In this document: in pieces, positions 2,585-63,831 of the stretch
Layout: every line of letters begins with the position of its first letter
Numbering within the stretch: the stretch's first letter is position 1
From: Branchiostoma floridae
Taxonomy: Eukaryota > Chordata > Leptocardii > Amphioxiformes > Branchiostomatidae
NCBI RefSeq assembly: GCF_000003815.2
Contig: NC_049994.1
Coordinates: 8,743,757 to 8,807,756 of the forward strand
DNA: 64,000 nt
Direction of reading: 5' to 3'
Translations under genes and position numbers: made by a program
Notes under the pieces: model-generated
Database searches by the model: none
Told to the model about the DNA's origin: nothing
The model's input: only the letters and a program-made list of their open reading frames with translations

Positions 2585-4036
2585 TTAAGACTTACAAAAA
2601 TTGAGACAAGGGACCTGATGTAGCTGTTGACCCACTGGATCTGTAAAAATGACAACGACAAAAACATTATCAGACCTGAAACTTACATCTATTTTGATTT
2701 CGATATTTTGCAGACATACAATGGGAAAGAAATAAAGTGTCATTAGCTTATTCTGTAGATGTAAAATGATCATTTTATGCACTCGGGGACTCCTGATTCT
2801 ATCTATCACAATCAGGCTTTATCTAATCACTTATACAAGTAACATTGGTATAATTAATCAAAATATAAGTGATTGACAGGTGTCAGACCTGAAAGTTTGA
2901 CATCTTCTGACAGCTCACCCCGCGCCCATTCGTCAGCGCCATCACAGCAGTCACATATCCCATCATTCACCCTGCTGGACGGCACATATCTCCCATCGGT
3001 CCTGCAGAAAAATCTGAAAAAAAATTTTTTTTACATTTCTTTTTACATTTTTTTACTAAAAATAAAGTAACAACTTTTTAGTCAATTTTTCTTCTAAATC
3101 ACTTTTGTCTACTGCATTACTTACTATGTCTTAAGTTTTAGCCTCACCTTCCTTTTGGACAGGCGTTTGTCCCCGGCTCGTCTACACCATTGTCAGGACA
3201 GTCACAGTAGTCATCGTTGAGCCTCGTCACGTTCATCCGTTCCTTTGTTCCGTAACAACTGAAGAACCCCTCCTTCATACCCGCAAGCAACATCTTCGCC
3301 TCTAACGGGCCCGCTCCCCTCAAAAAGTCTGCGTATTTTGTCGGGATGGCATCTGTTAAGTTCAGCTTGGTTACAAGGCGGGACACTACTGTTGGGCTGA
3401 GTTTTACATCATGGTGTTTTTCCTTGTGAGCTTTCAGGTCACCTTCATACAATATGTCCTTCCTGATACTCAACCCTTCTTGCAACTTGGACTTGGCCTT
3501 CTTTGCAACCTCTTGGCTCAGGATATCCGCAGATAGAAACTAGAAGGAAACAAAGAAAAGGTACAATATTTGTATTCAACTAATTAGTCGTAGACTTTCA
3601 AAAAACAAAATAATTGTGAGGACAAATATTGTCCATAAATTATGATAAGACTGCCTCATCTCTTCAACCCAGGACAAAAAAAATTAGACTAATGTCAATG
3701 ACAACATTTGATGACAGATGGCTATGGAGTTTTCTTTAAAGCTTTTGACAATATTTATATATTGATAGAATTCCTGCTATTGACCATTGTCCGTGCATTA
3801 CACACAAAGTAAATCATTTTTACAGATGCCTCAATTACATCACTTTTCCATAATCTAAAGATGTCAAATTTTATCAATATTGATATGAGATAATTTGAGT
3901 GTGAGTGAGTATATTAACGTACCTGGAACAGAAAGTAAATGATGGCGATGGTGCTGAGGATGCCGACCCATGTGAAGATACTGCGTCGCGTCAGAAGGCG
4001 GAATGGCGACGCCCTGAGTCCTAGCGGTTTCTTCAT
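2585..4036 (-). CDS. Glucosidase II beta-subunit-like, single-span membrane protein
   Basis: Four coding exons on the minus strand: 4036-3923, 3539-3148, 3013-2919 and 2640-2585. All junctions are GT-AG, the phases agree (0, 2, 1) and the total is 218 aa. Residues 1-38 carry basic residues and then a hydrophobic anchor ([17 protein letters not shown]), so a type II membrane protein is inferred. The second exon ends with an LDLa-like cysteine motif, [20 protein letters not shown]. The third starts [18 protein letters not shown] and continues [11 protein letters not shown], the second cysteine module of the PRKCSH N-terminal domain. The last exon gives a short CxxxC tail (CLNFC) and a stop. Full-length glucosidase II beta subunit has in addition a coiled coil, an MRH lectin domain and an ER-retrieval tail; none of these is present, so this is a short relative of the family. 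The start was chosen at the ATG before the basic segment; an out-of-frame upstream ATG pair lies just 5' of it. The last exon is the least certain. Confidence 0.8.
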
Positions 4037-21684: not shown

Positions 21685-21898
21685 CAGTACGACAATTTCA
21701 TCCCAGTGAATCTTGCCAAAAATACGGGCATACATCGATTGTACATCGTGCGATTCTTCGTCGTAGGATTTCCATGGCACTTTTGACCGAATGCTGACGT
21801 CAACGACCCACGTGTTAGCAGAGTCATTTGGGTGTCGGAGCCAAGCTATAGTTGTGTAATAATTGATGATCTAATGTACTGCCGGTAAAGATTTGAAA

Positions 21899-23491
21899 AT
21901 GGATAACGTTAGCTACAGCGTCATCTCTGCTATAGGGATATTGGCGAACCTGCTCGTCTTGTACATCGTTGTAAGGTACCGCGTCATGAGGACAGTGTGT
22001 AACGTGTATGTGGCCAACCTGGCAGCAACCGACTTCGCCTTCTGCCTTTACACCCTCATCCAGTCCATTGTTTCAAATTCAGAAACCTACGACGGGATCT
22101 GTGACGTCGGTCGTGTGCTCCTGGTCTTCCTGGTCTCTGCAAGCATCATGTTCTTAATAGTCATCGCTGTGGAACGATACAAAGCGATTACTGACCCTCT
22201 GAGAAGTAGACAACATGGTACCGTGAAACACGCGGGAAAAATCAGTGCTGTGGTGTGGATGGTGGCCTCCCTGGCGGCAGCTGTCGACACGGTGGCCAGG
22301 AACACTGTTACCAACGACTGGACGTTTACAGGCACTAGTCTTTATCATAATTCGTGTATTTTTCTGAAGCTTGAGTCCTCTGATGCCAGTCATCCCTTCT
22401 TTGTTATGGTACTCTTGTGCTTTGTATTCCTCTACTTCTTGCCCATCTGTATAATAGTTCCTCTGTACATTCGGATTTTAGTCAAAGTAAGGCAGTCACG
22501 CCGTTTGGTGGTAAGGGAGACTAGGTCGGATAATCAGGCGTTTCTCATGATGTTCGTAGTGACGGTCTTTTTTCTCGTCACCTGGCTTCCTTATCACGTC
22601 ATTTCCTTTATTATTCATCGGGTTGTTTCGAGAGAGAACGACGTGGCAATCGAGTTGGCGAAATCATTGGCGGTGTTAAACTCCATGGCCAATCCGTTTC
22701 TCTATGCTCTTCTCGGGAGGAACTTTCGAGACCAGCTAAAGAAAATGTTTTGCTGCAAACAGTGGGAGAACAGGAAACATTGGAGACCAAAGAGCGAAGC
22801 TTCGACGGACATGACACTAACAAGGCATGTAGTAGAAGCAACTGAATATGCTATAGGGCAGGCCCAGGGTACAGGCCGGACAGGACAGGGTCAGGCTACA
22901 GATGGGACAGCAAGGACCCAGGCTACAGGCGGGAAAGAAAGGACCCAGGCTACAGGCGTGACAGGACAGTCCCAGGCCACAAGCGGGACAAGACAGGGTC
23001 AGACTACAGGTGGGACAGGGCAGTCCCAGGCTACTGGCGGAACAGGACAGTCCCAGGCTACAGGTGAGACAGAACAGTCCCAGGCTACAGGTGGGACAGG
23101 ACAGTCCCAGGCTACAGGTGGGACAGAACAGTCCCAGGCTACTGGTGGGACAGAAATGACCCAGGCTACTGGCGGGACAAAAATGACCCAAGTTACTGAT
23201 GGGACAGAAAGGACCCAGGCTGCTGGCGGGACACAAAGGGCCCAGGCTACTGACGGGACAGAAACGACCCAGGCTGCAGGCGGGACAGAAAGGACCCAGG
23301 CTACTGACGGGACAGAAACGACCCAGGCTGCAGGCGGGACAGAAAGGACCCAGGCTACTGACGGGACAGAAACGACGCAGGCTGCTGGCTGGACAGAAAG
23401 GACCCAGGCTGCTGGCTGGACAGAAAGGACCCAGGCTGCTGGCGGGACAGAAAGGACCCAGGCGGGACAGGACAGACTACAGGCAGGATAG
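21899..23491 (+). CDS. Rhodopsin-class GPCR with a minisatellite-encoded C-tail
   Basis: Single open exon of 530 aa from the ATG at 21899. Class A landmarks: N17 in TM1 (an Ala stands where GN normally has Gly), D45 in LAATDF, C68 and C153 for the TM3-ECL2 disulfide, E92-R93-Y94 at the end of TM3, W120 in TM4, P188 in TM5, WLP at 229-231 in TM6 and NPFLY at 265-269 in TM7. A CC pair after TM7 (MFCCK) may be palmitoylated. The extracellular N-terminus has only about six residues, so an upstream exon is possible. After residue 310 the cytoplasmic tail is about 220 residues of a 9-residue unit of the type GGTERTQAT / GGTGQSQAT. The pattern resembles small peptide or amine receptors, but the ligand cannot be called. 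Intronless structure is common among lineage-expanded amphioxus GPCRs. Confidence 0.85.
   Translation: MDNVSYSVISAIGILANLLVLYIVVRYRVMRTVCNVYVANLAATDFAFCLYTLIQSIVSNSETYDGICDVGRVLLVFLVSASIMFLIVIAVERYKAITDPLRSRQHGTVKHAGKISAVVWMVASLAAAVDTVARNTVTNDWTFTGTSLYHNSCIFLKLESSDASHPFFVMVLLCFVFLYFLPICIIVPLYIRILVKVRQSRRLVVRETRSDNQAFLMMFVVTVFFLVTWLPYHVISFIIHRVVSRENDVAIELAKSLAVLNSMANPFLYALLGRNFRDQLKKMFCCKQWENRKHWRPKSEASTDMTLTRHVVEATEYAIGQAQGTGRTGQGQATDGTARTQATGGKERTQATGVTGQSQATSGTRQGQTTGGTGQSQATGGTGQSQATGETEQSQATGGTGQSQATGGTEQSQATGGTEMTQATGGTKMTQVTDGTERTQAAGGTQRAQATDGTETTQAAGGTERTQATDGTETTQAAGGTERTQATDGTETTQAAGWTERTQAAGWTERTQAAGGTERTQAGQDRLQAG
22865..23480 (+). repeat. 27-bp coding minisatellite in the GPCR tail
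   Basis: About 22 units, each encoding nine residues (consensus A-T-G/D-G-T-E-R/Q-T/S-Q). Subtypes drift along the array: GQSQ-type first, EMTQ-type in the middle, ERTQ/ETTQ alternation at the end. The alternation implies a higher-order 54-bp unit duplicated several times near 23250-23400. Confidence 0.9.
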
Positions 23492-40261: not shown

Positions 40262-40922
40262 GGCTATGGTTTATCAGACAAGTGGTACAACCTGTTACAC
40301 CACTTTCGACAATCAGAATACAACTCGTGACCAAAATGTGTCAACCAATCAGAGTGTGATCCGGTAAAAGATGTTGTGTAGATTATTCGCGTAACTATTG
40401 ATGTCTAGAGGATATTTCTAATTTCAGGGACAAAATCTTATACAGTGCACCTTTAAACTGGTATTACTCTTAGGTATCTTCTGACAAACTGCAATATGCC
40501 TGTGCTTACAAAAAAGCAAAGACAAGTGATACCATTCGATCCAAGCTCCGATCTAATTTTGGACCAATATTTAAAGAACGCTTTATTTGAACACTTTCTG
40601 TTGTGTCGCTATATAAAAGTAATTCAATCAAAACATACATTAACATACAAAAAATACATCAAAACATACATTAACACATTGAGTATAACTATAAGGCTTT
40701 TATGAAAGGACAATCACACTACATGCCAAACTTTATTACAGAGAAATGGATATCGTGTCGTCCTATTTCACTTTACGATTTTTATTTCAAGGAATTGTAT
40801 GGCATGGCATAAGAGATGGTTGCTGCAACGCCTCCTGTTGATTTGTTTGGGAACTGTTGTTGGGCGGGAAAAAAAGGTCATTCTCTCACCCTACGGATCA
40901 TGGTTCGTGTTTTTTTTAAAAA

Positions 40923-41903
40923 CTTGAGTCCTCTGATGGCAGTCATCCCTTCTTTGTTATGGTACTCTTGTGCTTTGTATTCCTCTACGTCCTGTCCATC
41001 TGTATAATAGTTCCTCTGTACGTTCGGATATTAGTCAAAGTAAGGCAGTCTCACCGTTTGGTGGTAAGGGAGACTAGGTCGGACAACCAGGCATTTCTTA
41101 TGATGTTTGTAGTGACGGTCTTTTTTCTTTTCACCTGGCTTCCTTATCACGTCATTTATTTTATTATCCATCGAGTTGTTTCAAAAGAGAACGACGTGGC
41201 AATCGAGTTGGCAAAATCGCTCGCGGTTCTGAACTCCATGGCCAACCCGTTTCTCTATGCTCTTCTCGGGAGGAACTTTCGACATCAGCTAAAAAAGATG
41301 TTTTGCTGCAAACAGCGGGAGAACAGGAAACATTGGAGACCAAAGAGCGAAGCTTCGACGGACATGACACTAACAAGACATGTAGTAGAAGCAACAGAAC
41401 ATGCTATAGGACAGGCAGATGTGACGGAACAGGCCCAGGATACAGGTGGGACAGGACAGGCCCATGACACAGGTGGGACAGAAAGGACCAAGGCTACAGA
41501 CGGGACAGAAAGGACCAAGGCTACCGACAGGACAGAAAGGACCAAGGCTACCGACAGGACAGAAAGGACCAAGGCTACTGACGGGACAGAAAGGACCAAA
41601 GCTACTGACGGGACAGAAAGGACCAAGGCTACTGACGGGACAGAAAGGACCAAGGCTACCGACGGGACAGAAAGGACCAAGGCTACTGTCGGGACAGAAA
41701 GGACCAAGGCTACCGACGGGACAGAAAGGACCAAAGCTACCGACGGGACAGAAAGGACCAAGGCTACTGACGGGACAGAAAGGACCAAGGCTACCGACGG
41801 GACAGAAAGGACCAAGGCTACTGACGGGACAGAAAGGACCAAGGCTACCGACGGGACAGAAAGGACCAAAGCTACCGACGGGACAGAAAGGACCAAGGCT
41901 TAA
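40923..41903 (+). pseudogene. 5'-truncated second GPCR copy (TM5-TM7 plus repeat tail)
   Basis: Homology to the complete GPCR begins abruptly at CTTGAGTCCTCTGATG, equivalent to residue 158 there, with a stop codon just upstream in frame. TM5, the WLP motif of TM6 and NPFLY of TM7 remain; the first ATG (40959) is inside TM5. TM1-TM4 and the ERY motif are missing, so no working receptor can be made. The frame is otherwise intact through the tail, which ends in about 16 units of GTERTKATD. It is most likely a relic of the duplication; a spliced gene with an unrecognised 5' exon is less likely. Confidence 0.8.
41475..41900 (+). repeat. 27-bp minisatellite in the truncated GPCR copy
   Basis: About 16 nearly identical units (GGGACAGAAAGGACCAAGGC plus 7 bases). 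It is much more homogeneous than the array in the complete GPCR, which indicates recent expansion. Other frames are open only because the unit is a multiple of three. Confidence 0.9.
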
Positions 41904-43620: not shown

Positions 43621-43626
43621 TTTATT
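43621..43626 (-). terminator. poly(A) signal of the ankyrin-like death-domain gene
   Basis: Minus-strand AATAAA 25 bases beyond the stop codon. Confidence 0.7.
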
Positions 43627-43650: not shown

Positions 43651-46600
43651 TTACTTCTCAGCCACTGGTGCTTCCTTCACAGTTGTTTCTGAAATATAAA
43701 CAACAAAACATTTTAATCTACTACGCAAATGCACAGTGTTATTGATTCAACTGTTGTGTAAATTATGAAATGGGTTGTACCAGAACACTCAATTGAAGAG
43801 CAAATTCAAATACAATTTGACTTGTTATCTCATTGTAGCACATAGAACTGAAAAATACCTGGGAATTTCTCCTTCAAACCATCCAACACACTCTGCAGCC
43901 CTGCCTGTTTTAGAGCCTTCATCAGCAAATCTATGGTTGCAAAGTTCCCTTTCTTCCGTTTCCACTTTCCCAGCATGTGCCAGCAGCTTTTCTTATTGTC
44001 ACGGTTTAGTTCGGCAATGTTTTGAATGTCTGTCCATGAGAAACCAAGAAAATGGGCCAAGTCCATCCAGTCAGTGCTTGCTTTTTCCTTGATGAAGTAG
44101 ATGTAATCAGCCATACCTGACATGCACCATGGACAAAGACAGTAATCATTTTGTAAGTGCTGAGTGTTGAGTATTTTTTCAATTGTGTTCTGCACTTCTG
44201 CTTCCCTTGTACTGGGTTGAATTGAACACATACTCTTATGGAGTGCCTTTATTGATAATTATTTTTGATAAGAAGGTTATGTTTTCGGGAGCATTCTTAT
44301 CTGTCTGTCTCTTTGTCTGTGATGCCTGGATGGATTGCCTTGAGATTTGAGGGTAGGTCTTGATGAGACCTCGAAATGATTAGATTTTTGGCCCTGGGTG
44401 GAGACGATGATGAAGTGTGTTTGTCATTGATCATCATTATCCAGCCATACTAGCAAATATTAACCAATAGGTATGGTTTATGTGTACATGTGTACAATCA
44501 TGTGACATTGAAAAATCCTACTGTACTTGTCTAATTGAGCTATATGTCCAACTTTGTAACAACTGTAAGTGCCAATACCTGATTTCTTTTTGATCGTCCG
44601 TTTGACTTCTGATGCAATTGTTGGTCGGGAACCGGATGCTGCTCCCTATTGGTAAAATAATTCAGTGACATAATTGTCAATGAGTCTTTTCTAATGATTA
44701 ATCTAAATACAATGCTATCTTTACATACTTTGTTCTAAGTGTTGTGGGCTTGACTTATCAATCAATTTGATATTATTTGTCAGTCATTGAAGAAACATCA
44801 AATTATCTATCTTTCTGGTAATAAATGTAGCCTGATTAAAATGGCACCCCTAGCGGCCGACCCCACAATTGCCGCCGCCCTAGGAGGAGGGGGTCATTAA
44901 CCCAGGCCAGTGAGAGCTTGTGTAAACACAAACTAGTAATAAATGATACATTGCTGTATTTTTAACATTGTCTACAAGACAGCTTTAAATGCCATAGCTG
45001 TATTTTACGTCTGTAATAGTTTTTTTTTTCATTTGATCCAATATAAAAGAATGTAAGTACCTGCAGGTGGTCTTCCATCTGTCTAGCCGGGAGTACTTTT
45101 ATCGAAAGTTCACACAGAAAGATTGAGCTGGGTTGCTCTTCTGGTTCTTGTTCCTTCCTCAGAACACTGCATACTTTCTTTCCATGGGCATTTACTCCGA
45201 CAGAAACGCGAGGCAAGGCATAGAACGTCACAAACCCCTCTCCGTCTAAATCTGTCTTGCCTTTGCCTTCTTTCTCACCTCTGACTGTGATATGGAGGAG
45301 GTTATGTTTTATCTGACTGTGGAAAGTTATTTGCTTGTCAGCCTTGCCGAACTGTGCGAATGACACGTTGCCTTCTATGTTTATTCCTACCTTTTGGCCT
45401 TCACACAGCCTTACTATTTTGCTTGGTACTGGAGCCTTGTAACCAGCACGAGTCTCTTTGTCGTCTGTGTCACTGACTTTGCAGCATTCTATGAGGAACT
45501 GATTTTGGTTGTCCTCCCGCTGCATTAGCATGAACTGTGCATCATGCTGATGAATCCAATTGCAAAGTGCCAACGGAATCGGTCCTATTTCCTCTGATTT
45601 GCCACCAGCCTGCATATCGAGTATGATATGGCTGAAAGATAGAATTATTTGAAAATATGAATAAAAAGAAGAAAAATATGTTGTTTTTTTGTCTGCAATT
45701 TTCAAATGCCGGAAAGGGTGCTAAATCTCAGTCTACTAACGGTACTAGACTAAGTACAGATTTTACCCTAAAACCTGCTAAAATCATGATGTCATCATGA
45801 TGACTGTTACAAAATGTTCAGTACCTGGAGGCTTCTGTGACGTTGAACTCAACAAATTCTCCAAGGTCTCGGATGTTGACATCATCAGTCACATCTGTCC
45901 ACTGGTCTGTCCCCTCCTCAGATGATGTCACACGCAGTTCGGTGGCGCCACCTTGTGGAACCTCCATGTAGTGCCGAGGATGTGGCACTTGCACTGTGAC
46001 TGGCTTGTTGAAGTGTACTGTTAACTGATCAGCAGCTTCGATCTTCACTATCGGGCTGGTGCAAACAAGGCTGTGGGAAGACTGGTCCCTGGCCTTCATG
46101 TCCTCCAATACTTCTTTGGAAATTTCTTGAACCTGTTTTTGCACATAGGATAATGATTCAGTTACACTTAAGGGTACGACAGACAAAAGGAAGCACAGTA
46201 ATTTGTTTCAGATGAAGACATTTTCCGTTAATAGTACAGTACGACAATTATTTCTCCAAAGGAGAAGCAAATATACACATCAACATTGATACCCTTTTTA
46301 TTCTACATGTTGGTATTGAAGATTGTTACCTGTAATTTCACTTGAATCGGCGTGCTCACTGACTGCTCAGGGATAGTGATTATTACAGTAGGCTGGGTTG
46401 ATGATGTCACTGTGACTCCTTTTGTAGATACAGAAAAGTGGTCTCGTTTGAGTTGACTGATGACAGCAAAGATGGCAAAGTGATCCACGGTAACTGTGAT
46501 ATGCTCTTTGCTCTGAAATAAGAAAACAAAAGAGAAAACCTCAAAAGTCATAATCTATTAGACAGAGAATCATACAAAATTTGTCAGATGTTTCATGATG

Positions 46601-49600
46601 CAATCTCTCAAAGCTGACAAGAATTTTTTTTTCCACATGCCTTTCTGGTTGTTTTGAGTTCTCTCCATTGTGACATGTCTTCTGTGACCCATATGACTGG
46701 TTCCCTGGTGTCACCTGATAACGTGCTGTTGTACGGCAGACGTACAGTGACAGGTTTGAGGAAGGTTGTTCCTTGTGGGCCCAGCTCAATGATGTCACTC
46801 ACTAACATGTCTCCATCCCTAAGAGACAGTGTGACGTCATTGGGGTCGATGATCCGACAAGTGATCACTGTTTGCATGGTAACGGCTCCAGGTGGCACAC
46901 TGACGATACAGGACGTGGTTTGTAGTTCACCTCCTTCTGCACCAATGCTGAGGCTGTCACCTCCTTCTGCACCAATGCTGAGGTTGTCACCTCCTTCTGC
47001 ACCAATGTTGAGGCTGTCACCTCCTTCTGCACCAATGCTGAGGTTGTCACCTCCTTCTGCACCAATGCTGAGGCTGTCACCTCCTTCTGCACCAATGCTG
47101 AGGCTGTCACCTCCTTCTGCACCAATGCTGAGGTTGTCACCTCCTTCTGCACCAATGCTGAGGCTGTCACCTCCTTCTGCACCAATGCTGAGGCTGTCAC
47201 CTCCTTCTGCACCAATGCTGAGGTTGTCACCTCCTTCTGCACCAATGCTGAGGTTGTCACCTCCTTCTGCACCGATGCTGAGGTTGTCACCTCCTTCTGC
47301 ACCAATGCTGATGTTGTCACCTCCTTCTGCACCAATGCTGAGGTTGTCACCTCCTTCTGCACCAATGCTGAGGCTGTCACCTCCTTCTGCACCAATGCTG
47401 AGGTTGTCACCTCCTTCTGCACCAATGCTGAGGCTGTCACCTCCTTCTGCACCAATGCTGAGGCTGTCACCTCCTTCTGCACCAATGCTGAGGCTGTCAC
47501 CTCCTTCTGCACCAATGCTGAGGCTGTCACCTCCTTCTGCACCAATGCTGAGGCTGTCACCTCCTTCTGCACCAATGTTGAGGCTGTCACCTCCTTCTGC
47601 ACCAATGCTGAGGCTGTCACCTCCTTCTGCACCAATGCTGAGGCTGTCACCTCCTTCTGCACCAATGTTGAGGCTGTAATGGTTGTGACTGAAGTCAGTA
47701 CTTAAACTTAGTATGTTTAGAAAAACAAAATAAAATCATTCTTGATGGCTTTCATACATTGTCAAAAATGTATGTGTTATGATTCTTGTCCTCAGTTATC
47801 GTTTATTTTGTTCTATTGTACAAATGTACATTTGTGCAGTACTTTTAAAAAGACTTTGAATGTTGATTTTAAAAATACATCCGAGACCAGTGCTCAAGAA
47901 TATCAAAAGCTTATGTATTCGACCTACCTCTTTATCAGTTGTTGCGACAGGGATGAGACTTCTTCTGGAGTAATTTCTGAATGTGATTTAGGTGCCTTGC
48001 CATCCTACAAAAAAGCAGTTGTTAGTAATTAACAATTTGTAAAAATTGATTTGATAGTGTTTAATATTACGAAATACGGATTGAAATTAATTAAAAAAAA
48101 AAACAATTTATGTTATGGAGTTTTTCAATCTGTAATAGGTATTAGGTTGAAACAAGGTTTAAGACCTTCTTGGTTGAAATTTTGATTCAACCCCAGACCT
48201 ATGATATATGTAGTCAGGCCATACAGAGTAAGCAAATGCACCCTGAAAGTTGTAATATATGATAACATTCCAAACCTTATCGTCCACCAGTGTCCCAGGC
48301 TTAAGGAATTCAGCAATACCATAATGTTCTCTCAAAATGGCCATACGAAATGGGGTGACTCCATACTGTAACAACAGGGAAACAAAGTAGGCATCACAAA
48401 GCACTAAATATCTAGATCCTTATGTATACTGAAATTTGCACGTTAAATTATCCTTTTCCATATTTCACTCCATACCACAGGGGGGAGTGAAAAATACTGC
48501 TTTGTATTGCTGTATAAACAAACTGTCTTCATCAATTCATTCAATCAATCTATTATTCATCTTTTTTCATTCATTTTATAAATACTACAACCTTTCCAAC
48601 AACAATATTATCTACATGCCATACCTTATTTTTGCTGTCCACCAGTGCTCCAGCATTAAGGAGTAGTTCAGCAACTCCCATATTCCCCGACTCAGCTGCC
48701 ATGTGAAGTGGGGTGTCACAATACTGTAAACAAATAGAGTAAAGTCAGCCTGACATACTTTATGACAGGTCTGCCATTGTATCTCTCATCATAAACATGT
48801 ACAGATAACATCAAAAGAATTGTCACTCATGCCTGGTGTACACCAAGCAGTACCTTATTCCGGCTGTCCATCTGTGCTCCAGCCTGAATGAGGAGTTCAG
48901 CAACACCAACATGTCCACTCTCAGCTGCCAAGTGAAGTAGGGAGCACTGTTGCTATAACAATGTGACAAAGAGTCCAAGTCATTACCTCATTACCTACAT
49001 TTTTAGAAGCATTTTTCGATGTGTGTGTGTCTGTGTGTGTGTGTCTGTATGTGTGTGCCTGTTTTTCATAACGCCATTTTGATTTGATCATATAGATGAC
49101 ATCCTCTGGGAAGCCCAAAACTGATGCGAGCGCACAAATAAAACAAAATTTGACCAAAAAAAGTTGCCTTTAGTATGAAATCTAAGTGGCAAGGTTGGAC
49201 ATGGGACTAAACACAAATAGTAATATTTGGTATACCAACAATAAAGTGTAGGGACCGATACATTGTATTGTAAAAATCAGCTGAACGGGTTTCGCCAATT
49301 AGAAAACGGACACACTATATCGGCAGTCGATTTGGCGCTCAGCAAGCCAACAAAATAACAAGAGCGAAGTCAAGTTGAGTTTACAGTCATTTCTACCAAG
49401 TTTCTACAGTCAAAGGTAGAGAGGTAGCTAGCCTTGATTACATGAAGATAGGATCTTAAAACACCAATGGGAGTTGGATATTCCATCAAATAGATTCCTT
49501 TGTAGGACCCTTGTTTCGAGTATTGCCTGCCCAATCACAAGTTTTCAAAGAGAATCATGTTCAGGTCCGGACCTGGACCCTATCCTCAGGACCTGAACCA

Positions 49601-51167
49601 GCCCTGTACCTGAATTTTTTGTACTGATACCCACCCCTACCAACAATAGATTTTTCAGTTTTGCACTTTCACATCTTATTCTTTGACTTAATTTTTACTT
49701 TGGCATTCTATGACATTAGTATCTGTTTTCCGATACTTTTTTTCAATCTACGGCATAAATGTGCTCATTCTACAGCTGTTTTGTACGATTTGCAGTAATT
49801 GCTTTTTATTGTGGAAACAGCCGAAAAGTGATGCGCATGTCATCCATATAATGTCCATGTCGTCCATTACACATGTAATCAAATCAACATGGCCTAAAGA
49901 TAACTCAAGAATGGCTGAAAGGTTTTGTTTGTATTGAAACATCATCCAAATTCAGGCATTTTCTCCCTTTGACAAATTTGACCCCAGTAACAATTTGACA
50001 TGACACTATTCAACTTGGTAAGGATCAGAGGACTGATCAAAAGTGCTTGTTGGTAAGTGCTTCATTTTGTGTATGGAAGTTTAAAATTGCAACATAATTT
50101 GACATTTGCCTTTACCACTGGAGACACAGAATTCAATTTCAATTGAGTTAAATGCAATCTAAATAATATAATTTATATAATTTTTTTGCAATAGAACTAG
50201 AGGTTTGTCAGTACTTACAAGTACTAGTTTACAGTTTACGTCCATTCCATATTGAAGCAATTGCGATACACGAGCCACATCACCATTGCAGACTGCATCA
50301 ACAAGTTCCTGAAATTTAAAAAAATCAAGCTTTGTAGACAAAGATAATATGCAATAATCCATGCCACACATACAACACATGTCGTAAAGGCTAACATAAG
50401 TCATGATACTAAAGGGTGGCAATTAATATCGGTTCAGTGAGGTGGCAGTAAAATTGGGGCATTGGTAACACAAAGGAGTAGAAATAAGTGACTCTAGTGT
50501 CCTTTAAAAACACCATGATTATATCATTTCCTGCAGTATCTGACTCTTGTTACATGTACTTTCTATTTAGAATGAACAAGTTAGTCACTTTGTCAATATT
50601 TTCTCCCAAAGCAGTCTCACAGACTAGTCTATTGTGAATCGGTCAAATGACCGTATCGCACTGAATGTGATTCGGTCATTTGATATACTAAGAAGTGTCA
50701 AGTTTCATAAGTTCAATGCTCGGAGACGTTGAATGAACAAAAGAACAATAAAAAACCTTAAGTATTTGTACCATTTTCAAGTAATACATTTTAGCAGATT
50801 TATCTTTTCTAGTTTCAAGTTGGTTCATAATTATCATACATGCAGACTGCTCAAACATCATTTGCTGGAGGTTTTAAGGTGTATGATAATCATCAGGATG
50901 GAAATGCTCATGTAACTGCTGATGCCAACCTTTGCACGTATTTGACTAGGAATCCCAAATCAATACGTGGTATACACATAGGCAAGCGTATAGGTAGTTA
51001 AACACAAGGAATGAAAAACTAGTTCAGCTGTTAAAGTTTGTTGTATGATTTGGACATCAATGGCTACAAAAAAACAGGCCTACAGTCGCAAGAAATTTTG
51101 CTAGGCTATTCAAAGTAAATGCCATACTAGTTTTACACTTTACCTTTTCAGCGACCACAGAGGACAT
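43651..51167 (-). CDS. Ankyrin-repeat / ZU5 / UPA / death-domain protein, complete (983 aa)
   Basis: Thirteen exons: 51167-51144, 50308-50219, 48952-48854, 48723-48625, 48365-48276, 48004-47928, 47688-46641, 46512-46330, 46132-45825, 45631-45061, 44645-44579, 44116-43859 and 43688-43651. Every phase agrees. Residues 9-134 are four ANK-type units, one per exon (for example TPLHMAAESGNMGVAELLLN); the last is degenerate. Residues 164-413 are 25 copies of a 10-residue unit, D-S/N-L-S-I-G-A-E-G-G. ZU5 follows from about 414 (IVSVPPGAVTMQTVITCRII) to about 530 and carries HFA at 520-522. A second ZU5-like part spans about 535-670, UPA about 673-850 (FLIECCKVSDTDDKE) and a death domain about 888-970 (DWMDLAHFLGFSW). 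This is the domain order of ankyrins, on a much smaller scale; PIDD shares ZU5-UPA-death. A cytosolic adaptor role is inferred. Intron 7 uses a GC donor. Confidence 0.93.
46931..47680 (-). repeat. 30-bp coding minisatellite, 25 units
   Basis: Every unit is exactly 30 bases. Variation is almost limited to one base that switches Ser and Asn at position 2, an AGC/AAC switch at position 4 (three units), one Leu-to-Ile unit and one silent change. The units sit inside exon 7 and are read in frame from the preceding exon into ZU5. Other frames on both strands are open as a by-product. Confidence 0.95.
49555..49640. mobile_element. Fragment of a GGTCCGGAC-type hAT MITE
   Basis: CAGGTCCGGACCTGGACCCT ... 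TGTACTGATACCCACCCCTA, the characteristic right end of the family also seen in the tetraspanin introns. Confidence 0.5.
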
Positions 51168-61731: not shown

Positions 61732-62566
61732 CTGCAACAAGAGTTAAAAACAACATGAAAGGTTAGAGTATGCTATGTACATGTAGTCAAAACCTTTGTC
61801 ATACTGTAAATTCATTCACTCTCACTGGGACTTCATTTTGCAAGAGCAGTTTTATTTTCAGTTGAAGCAATCCTTTGTTCAATACAGAGTACAAATACAG
61901 AGCACAAATTTGTGGCATCATATTTTTGCGATGAGAGGTCAATGGAATACTGCAAAAAAATAAAACCCCAGTAAATGTTCCAAGATCAACAGTAGCAAAT
62001 GATGTGTGTTTTCAATAAGAATTCAAATCAATCAAAACCAGCCTGCAAGTGATTTGAATCGAATTTCATATCTTTGTTTCTGCATGTCAAAAAGTAATGG
62101 AGCCATGGACAGCATTTACAAATAACCTACCATATTTCATAATACATGTATTATTTGAATGGCGATTCTTAGGTTTTGCATTTGCAACACTTCTACACTA
62201 AAGAACTTCTTTCCTTCTGTTGTACTAGTAACCAGCTTAACTGGTCAAAAAGGATCATGGTACAAAACCTGTGTGTTTAACACACTGGATATAATATCCC
62301 TATTAGTCGAAGGCTTGCTGAACAAGAATGGTTGTTCAAAAATCAACTAGGCAATACAAATTAAATCTTTTGCTTAAGTCTAATGCTAGGTTAGAATATC
62401 AACTTGAAAACCGAGTCTCAGGAAAGTCTATACCTTGGTAAAGAATTTGAGTCAATAGTCAGAATCAGATGCAAAGACTTCGTGATAATGAGAAAATAGT
62501 GTATTCACAGGGGCTTAAGTTTGCAATTTCATAATTTCTCTATGCCACATACTTAACAGTAATGGA

Positions 62567-62955
62567 AACATTGGCGGTTTCAAATTTGCGGTAAGAACCA
62601 GAAAACAAAAACACAGCAAAATCTGATGAACCACAGTACCCTATCCCTTACACAATTTGCAATGATCTGTCCCTATCATGTCAGAAGAGATGGAAAGAAA
62701 CATTGGCGGTTTCAAATTTGCGGTAAGAACCAGAAAACAAAAACACAGCAAAATCTGACGAACCACATTACCCTATCCCTTACACAATTAGCAATGATCC
62801 GTCCCTATCGTGTCAGAAGAGATGGAAAGAAACACTGGCGGTTTCAAATTTGCGGTAAGAACCAGAAAACAAAAACAAAGCAAAATCTGACGAACCACAG
62901 TACCCTATCCCTTACACAATTAGCAATGATCTGTCCCTATCATGTCAGAAGAGAT
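62567..62955. repeat. 132-bp tandem repeat, three copies
   Basis: AACATTGGCGGTTTC starts at 62567, 62699 and (AACACTGGCGG) 62831. BZW-A intron 1 has one diverged copy at about 35610-35745, so this is a local amplification after the duplication. Confidence 0.9.
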
Positions 62956-63831
62956 GAGTAGAAGAGCAGCTTGCACTAATGCACCTGCCCATTAAAACCC
63001 ACTCTGGGGACGGGGGAACCACTAATGCTTCCAGCCAAGGTTACACTGTCATTGCTTCATCATAGCTCGTTAGAACATGTAGGCTTCATTTCTAACTCGC
63101 TTCATTCATGCTTGCTTTGTAACAAAACATGTATATGTACATGGTGGAAGAAATAGTCAGGCTACCATACTTCTTAAGTACTTAATTTGAAATTTTTACT
63201 TCATTTTCTATGAAAATCTTACTTTACTTTCTCTGAATATTCATCGAACACGAAGGTTTTTCGTCGGAAATCGGGTTTATGAATAGATATTCTGTCATAC
63301 TCATACATGTACATTTTTACAGGTTACATGACCATTTTTAAAGCAGAAAACATCTTGTACATCCTGCTATTTTTGCCAGAACGATTTGTAAAACTAAAGT
63401 TCATACATAATTCTCAGAGACAGTCGTAACGATATGTACATATTCTTCTTGTTAATCCGTCTGCATCACAGACATCATGATCACAGACATCACGATGCAC
63501 ATTTGAATGGAAAAGTAAGAAAACTGTATTTCTCACAATACTACTGTAAAAGCAGTTGTTCCTATTTTTCTTCTCTTTACAGAATGAAGACCCATTTCCT
63601 ATAAACAGATTACAATACTGAAAATTGGAGATGTTCTCTAGTTTGGTACATATGTCTTCTGTCAGGATGACAGTTTGAGGTTAATACACCAATAATATGG
63701 TAACATTACATTGAGTCTGTGGTCGAGCTGTCTTGTCCAGTTTGAGTGGTCATCACTTGAACTGCATGCAATAATGCAGTCCTGTTTGCATTTGATGTCC
63801 CTATGCCTTAACAAAAGTACTAGAAATATAC

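Follow-up and report, generated by a model that had tools for sequence, protein, structure and literature searches.

PIDD, a self-cleaving death-signalling switch, and ankyrin, a scaffold, both carry the domain order ZU5-ZU5-UPA-Death. A gene of the amphioxus Branchiostoma floridae, located on the minus strand at 43651-51167 of a stretch of 64,000 nucleotides (the window; C16:8743757-8807756), combines this order with a few ankyrin (ANK) units and a long, homogeneous 10-residue repeat. This raises the question which of the two proteins its product resembles in its way of working, and whether the repeat is part of that product. An earlier note, made from the DNA alone, had described a "miniature ankyrin"; its observation is confirmed, its interpretation partly supported. 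We show here that the gene is real and probably live, that it belongs to a multigene family and that its repeat was copied from the beginning of its own first ZU5 domain (ZU5-1). With moderate confidence, we read it as a probably non-cleavable member of a family that would work like PIDD, with ANK replacing the leucine-rich repeats.

A probably live gene of a multigene family

Thirteen exons, all on the minus strand, splice into a single open frame of 978 codons with closed phases. Eleven of the 12 introns are GT-AG and one, intron 7 after exon 7, is GC-AG (donor AAG|GCATGT at 46640-46641), where all eight modelled relatives have GT. The start codon (51167-51165) opens exon 1 (51144-51167; MSSVVAEK, donor gtaaag), and the tenth codon upstream of the ATG is an in-frame stop. 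Exons 2 to 5 hold the ANK units: a first, N-cap unit ELVDAVCNGDVARVSQLLQYGMDVNCKLVL (50219-50308; Pfam, with a similar exon in the relatives L035, L036 and L039, introduced below), two repeats supported by splice model, Pfam and relatives (48854-48952 and 48625-48723), and a divergent last unit (48276-48365; splice model and Pfam). A linker exon with a phase 2 donor (exon 6, 47928-48004; splice model) leads to exon 7 (46641-47673; Pfam and acceptor score), which comprises 24 extra 10-residue units and the exon 7 part of ZU5-1, beginning at the last unit LSIGAEGGELQTT (46641-46952; Pfam and alignment). Exon 8 (46330-46512) contains the end of ZU5-1 with DHFAIF and the start of the second ZU5 domain (ZU5-2), and exon 9 (45825-46132) completes ZU5-2 and ends in VTEAS, both placed by Pfam and alignment. 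UPA lies in exon 10 (45061-45631), a linker in exon 11 (44579-44645; splice model), the Death domain in exon 12 (43859-44116; Pfam E 6.2e-12) and the C-terminal end with the stop in exon 13 (43651-43688; splice model). The protein ends 12 residues past the Death-domain exon and has no long tail; an AATAAA polyadenylation signal (43621-43626) follows about 25 nt past the stop.

Acceptors were scored with a matrix built from 50 real acceptors, 11 of the window gene (that of exon 7 excluded) and 39 of its relatives, whose leave-one-out scores have a minimum of 0.1 and a median of 9.6. The exon 7 acceptor at 47673 scores 7.6. An acceptor at 47688, 15 nt upstream, in frame and adding five residues, scores -0.4; it was rejected for the model and retained as an alternative. 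The 13 exons in one frame of the earlier note hold, while its length of 983 residues becomes 978, a difference that likely stems from the choice between these two acceptors.

The genome searched comprises 513,431,437 bases in 431 contigs, and ZU5 occurs at 41 places in it. A protein search with the part from ZU5 to the Death domain gave 81 matches, with 75 of 291 candidates scored, and yielded at least ten close relatives of ZU5-1: seven on C12, one on C6 and two on C9. An additional place on C12 has ZU5-2 and UPA only. Nine relatives were read, namely L034, L035, L036 and L038-L041 on C12, L042 on C6 and L043 on C9; the last was read as 1.5 kb only (C9:1100750-1102250), too short for either end of a gene. 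The order ANK, both ZU5 domains, UPA and Death domain is present in six of the nine (L034, L036, L038-L041). L035 has ANK, both ZU5 domains and the start of UPA, and no Death domain in the DNA examined; L042 runs from ZU5 to the Death domain, with no ANK match in the 2 kb upstream. ANK units thus lie upstream on the same strand in seven of nine relatives, the loci of L042 and L043 being too short to judge, and they number at least six in L034, three each in L035, L039 and L040, four in L036, seven in L038 and five in L041, all lower bounds. In L034 (C12:17636000-17645999) UPA reads in two frames, which may reflect a frameshift or broken copy, an additional intron or an error of the assembly. 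Splice sites, sought in the expected phase only, are found at the homologous places of exons 7-9 in all eight modelled relatives, barring shifts of the exon 7 start, and the start of exon 10 matches within 7 nt in all eight. L043 is not part of the sets used for substitution rates, acceptor matrix and profile, nor are L034, L035 and L040 part of alignment A1. Because six relatives have the whole order and the exon borders are common, the architecture and its low number of ANK units characterize the family and are not a one-off. The order that had seemed unfamiliar is therefore family-wide, and it is the array that is found at the window locus only. Among the titles listed by the literature searches, none concerned a family of the type ANK-ZU5-ZU5-UPA-Death.

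The tree was built from 12 rows, ten of the family and two ankyrins, one of the latter flagged for odd letter make-up, over 265 columns. It separates the family from the two ankyrins by one long branch (100/100), so that the family sits apart from canonical ankyrins. This covers the ankyrin part of a tree proposed earlier; the tree has no PIDD row. When it is rooted on the ankyrins, the window gene splits off before all other family members (86/81, unstarred; two of nine inner branches are starred). L025 looks like a separate canonical-type ankyrin gene. A study of giant ankyrins gives cephalochordates one ankyrin gene, in which it reports having found no Death domain (PMC5135030).

Two rival explanations concern the gene as such. 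It would be a decaying copy if minisatellite and missing motifs reflected relaxed constraint, and the GC donor, the absence of the cleavage motifs described below and the differences between the array units (14 non-synonymous, 1 synonymous) would fit; the latter comprise only five distinct changes and yield no conclusion on selection, because the units copy each other. However, the 13 exons contain no stop or frameshift, and the end branch of the gene (0.27) equals the tree median. Over exons 7-9 the synonymous rate dS is 0.72-0.90 and the non-synonymous rate dN 0.27-0.36 against all eight relatives tested, a pairwise dN/dS of about 0.33-0.42 (computed from rounded values) that is not assignable to the window lineage alone. 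We conclude that this is a real and probably live gene under pairwise purifying selection, and regard decay as very improbable. Even less credit is due to a gene-model artefact in which ANK and the part from ZU5 to the Death domain are two genes. Towards the 5' end there are introns of 1.3 kb and 0.8 kb, which would allow for it, as would a model known from sequence alone, but phases close over all 12 introns and seven of nine relatives have ANK upstream on the same strand, in agreement with the single gene proposed earlier.

An ankyrin-like core in a family with PIDD-type motifs

The domain order of the protein is ANK(4)-repeat-ZU5-ZU5-UPA-Death, as the earlier note had stated, including the low number of four ANK units. 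Pfam recovers Ank_4 (1.3e-20) and ZU5 (5.8e-20 in two stretches; 2.3e-5 for ZU5-2 alone) besides the Death domain, and no leucine-rich repeat family in this protein. Profile searches suggested earlier thus bear out ZU5 and Death, while for UPA the Pfam scan gave no significant match in the window protein. UPA_2 matches weakly in three of six family members scanned (best E 0.061), and both single-sequence and profile searches align the putative UPA stretch with UPA of ankyrins 1-3. A UPA fold predicted from exon 10 alone was useless (mean predicted local distance difference test, pLDDT, 32). A search for phage relatives of ZU5-1 gave one match, at E 0.8.

Ankyrins 1-3 are also the nearest solved chains over ZU5-ZU5-UPA in both kinds of search, and the family profile matches ankyrin-2 at E 5.5e-40, with homology from ZU5-1 to the Death domain. 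No chain named UNC5, NLRP1 or CARD8, all of which are present in the PDB, is among the 41 PDB matches of this profile at E <=1. The isolated Death domain behaves differently. As a single sequence it matches PIDD (1.9e-4), THOC1 (0.009), RIPK1 (0.012) and ankyrin-3 (0.27); as a profile it matches NRADD (1e-7), followed by THOC1, RIPK1, PIDD (1.9e-6) and FADD (to about 3e-6), with isolated ankyrin Death domains weaker (4e-4 and 6.6e-4). The description as a miniature ankyrin hence suits the ZU5-ZU5-UPA core. The Death domain taken by itself matches PIDD, NRADD, RIPK1 and FADD better, although the ankyrin-2 match has one stretch that extends through it. Should the protein nevertheless be a true ankyrin in function, it would be a short membrane-cytoskeleton scaffold whose ZU5-1 binds spectrin. 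The nearest solved chains argue for this, whereas the four ANK units, the separate canonical-type gene L025, the long branch between the family and the two ankyrins, the poorer matches of ankyrin Death domains and a multicopy family with HFS in most members argue against it, and we hold it to be improbable. Outside the family, at least 37 further Death-domain places are 43-52% identical to that of the window gene; they lie on C5, C11, C14, C16, C17, C18 and others, some of them in clusters (e.g., C5:26.0-26.2M, C11:21.1-21.4M and C16:16.2-16.5M). A survey from 2007 lists, in its Table 1, 139 (136) Death domains in B. floridae and 31 (29) in human (PMC2246300).

PIDD is reported to be cut at two borders, that of the two ZU5 domains (S446) and that of ZU5-2 with UPA (S588; PMC11637483). 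It uses the motif HFS, while CARD8 and NLRP1 are described as requiring the second Ser of SF/S, Phe also being important in CARD8 (PMC3210808). At the position of the first border (site 1), HFS is present in six of nine relatives (L034, L035, L036, L039, L040, L041), the remaining three having DHST (L038), NQCS (L042) and DSFG (L043). The window gene reads DHFA, with Ala replacing the attacking Ser. At the second border (site 2), three relatives have HFS (L034, L039, L042), two HFT (L035, L040), three HCT (L036, L038, L041) and one RCS (L043, as YRCS), while VTEAS of the window gene has no His-Phe. HFS was likely lost in the window gene, whose protein should remain uncut given the Ala of site 1 and the absence of His-Phe from site 2. 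L043 is a second family member without HFS at either border. Near site 1, ankyrins 1-3 and L025 read DFP; none of them has HFS. L030, which contains HFSW, was tried as an amphioxus PIDD and dropped, its open reading frames presumably resembling those of ZO-1.

We therefore favour, on motif and domain order, a cytosolic adaptor from a multigene family of the type ANK (3-7 units seen)-ZU5-ZU5-UPA-Death, with a core that would share descent with ankyrin and a working mode that is probably PIDD-like. An upstream partner would dock onto the ankyrin repeats, while the Death domain would be restrained by the ZU5-ZU5-UPA block. In most relatives, HFS-type self-cleavage may free UPA with the Death domain and so allow the recruitment of Death-domain partners. 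The window protein would stay uncut and act as a constitutive scaffold, or as a brake (decoy) on its cleavable relatives; 240 extra acidic, Gly-rich residues would separate its ANK units from ZU5.

Several observations speak against this view of a non-cleavable, PIDD-like protein. In sequence the core is close to ankyrin, and the profile match to ankyrin-2 includes a stretch that spans ZU5-2 through the Death domain, so that common descent with ankyrin is favoured there too. Three of nine relatives likewise are without HFS at site 1, and at site 2 the aligned Ser is kept in the window gene. For Nup98, cleavage is described as hardly affected by a change of the His (PMC3210808). Finally, HFA might be the ancestral state and not the result of a loss, because canonical ankyrins have no HFS and the window gene branches earliest. 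The pairwise character of the dN/dS values belongs to the same side.

The 30-bp array at the start of ZU5-1

Tandem Repeats Finder delimits a minisatellite of 25.0 copies of 30 bp at 46927-47677. In frame it gives 25 units with the consensus SLSIGAEGGD, 24 of which end in D. The 25th, SLSIGAEGGE, continues directly into ZU5 (LQTTSCIVSVPPGAV). This strand 1 of ZU5-1 (VGPEGGELQT and similar) occurs as a single copy in the ZU5-1 exon of all nine relatives, and in L042 the opening of that exon, AATTACAG|GCTCACAGTGGGTCCAGAAGGAGG, is the counterpart of one window unit. Since the last unit is the ZU5 strand and is single-copy in nine of nine relatives, the spacer goes back to the beginning of the ZU5 exon, copied 24 times; a minisatellite would have done so in frame. 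The repeat of 250 residues described earlier is thus confirmed as 25 in-frame units, but it is not wholly a spacer, its last unit being part of ZU5-1. The 250 residues include 75 Gly, 50 acidic and no basic residues. A DNA search of the genome gave 12 matches to the array, all at the window locus; simple repeats are skipped by this search.

In lancelets, tandem arrays on intron/exon borders have been termed "mirages", with examples in globins and Adh3 (units of 10-72 bp, somatic instability; PMC3087553) and in troponin C and PGBD5 (PMC3902484). These papers report or infer them, in the cases covered, to be harmless to splicing. This counts against our reading, since an array that leaves splicing undisturbed could here be spliced out as well. 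The acceptor would then lie in or near the last unit, and a mature protein of 738 residues would have one ZU5 strand 1 and no spacer. In line with this, the array overlaps the border of intron 6 and exon 7 by 4 nt (ACAG), and a splice at ACAG|CC in a different unit would leave the frame intact. However, only these 4 nt of the array lie in the intron. The acceptor of the last unit, at 46953, scores -6.4 and is situated 720 nt downstream of the one at 47673, and the 30-bp unit is 37% pyrimidine. Of the 112 AG dinucleotides within the array, none exceeds 0.1, the minimum among the 50 real acceptors, compared with 7.6 for 47673. A splice ladder across the 25 units is not supported by these 112 scores either. 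Because the acceptor at 47673 scores well and the internal AGs do not, we regard the array as quite probably translated and a silent array as unlikely. The open frame through the array is by itself weak evidence, because near-identical units share their fate in each frame.

No weight was given to a beta-solenoid of the array, which appeared when exon 7 alone was modelled with AlphaFold2, in the best model out of five. Its array strands mostly reach a pLDDT of 80-88 while the ZU5 part stays below 50, the remaining four models have mean pLDDT values of 31-54, and the solenoid has no PDB match at E <=0.001. For repeat proteins, AlphaFold2 is described as predicting solenoids that are unrealistic in spite of their high confidence (PMC11795689). 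The structure prediction proposed earlier was thus carried out for exons 7 and 10 and gave nothing usable.

More speculatively, and with a low probability, the array may be a mirage captured as coding sequence. It would place 25 interchangeable copies of ZU5 strand 1 before a non-cleavable, PIDD-like ankyrin core, so that the spacing from ANK to the Death domain, and perhaps the copy that completes the fold, would vary between individuals, even tissues, with expansion and contraction of the array.

The window contains a second case of a coding minisatellite within its 64 kb. Two rhodopsin-type G-protein-coupled receptor reading frames on the plus strand (21875-23491 and 40920-41903; 7tm_1 9.3e-45 and 4.1e-14), 84% alike over 1029 bp, both end in an in-frame 27-bp minisatellite encoding 9-residue repeats (GGTERTQAT / DGTERTKAT). 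A 132-bp tandem repeat of three copies with 96% matches lies at 62565-62956 within an open frame of 132 residues, and an exon of a glucosidase II beta-subunit-like gene (PRKCSH-like, 1.9e-13) at 3144-3539 on the minus strand.

Comparison with known systems

The array resembles the amphioxus mirages of Adh3, the globins BflGb6 and BflGb9, TnC and PGBD5 in its tandem units at an intron/exon border, though its overlap with the border may be chance, and its unit of 30 bp is within the 10-72 bp given for the Adh3 mirage. Unlike these, it has only 4 nt in the intron, its units are in frame and it is probably translated. If so, it would show clearly how a minisatellite at an intron border can turn into protein.

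UNC5, CARD8 and NLRP1 have one ZU5 domain, in contrast to two in the window gene. In UNC5, ZU5-UPA is followed by a death-fold domain, an arrangement that is also described for CARD8 and NLRP1 (PMC3210808). With ankyrins 1-3 (ANK1, ANK2, ANK3) the window gene shares the order ANK-ZU5-ZU5-UPA-Death and sequence homology from ZU5-1 to the Death domain. It differs from them in having four ANK units instead of about 24, no long tail and a strand-1 array, and in belonging to a multigene family with HFS motifs. With PIDD1 it shares ZU5-ZU5-UPA-Death, UPA by ankyrin alignment only, and PIDD Death-domain chains are among its matches; at the two self-cleavage borders of PIDD1, most relatives have HFS-type motifs. 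It differs from PIDD1 in having ANK for leucine-rich repeats and in being without the Ser of site 1 and the His-Phe of site 2. A chordate family in which ankyrin-type sequence is combined with PIDD-type motifs that are kept, changed or absent would offer a test of how scaffold and switch are converted into each other.

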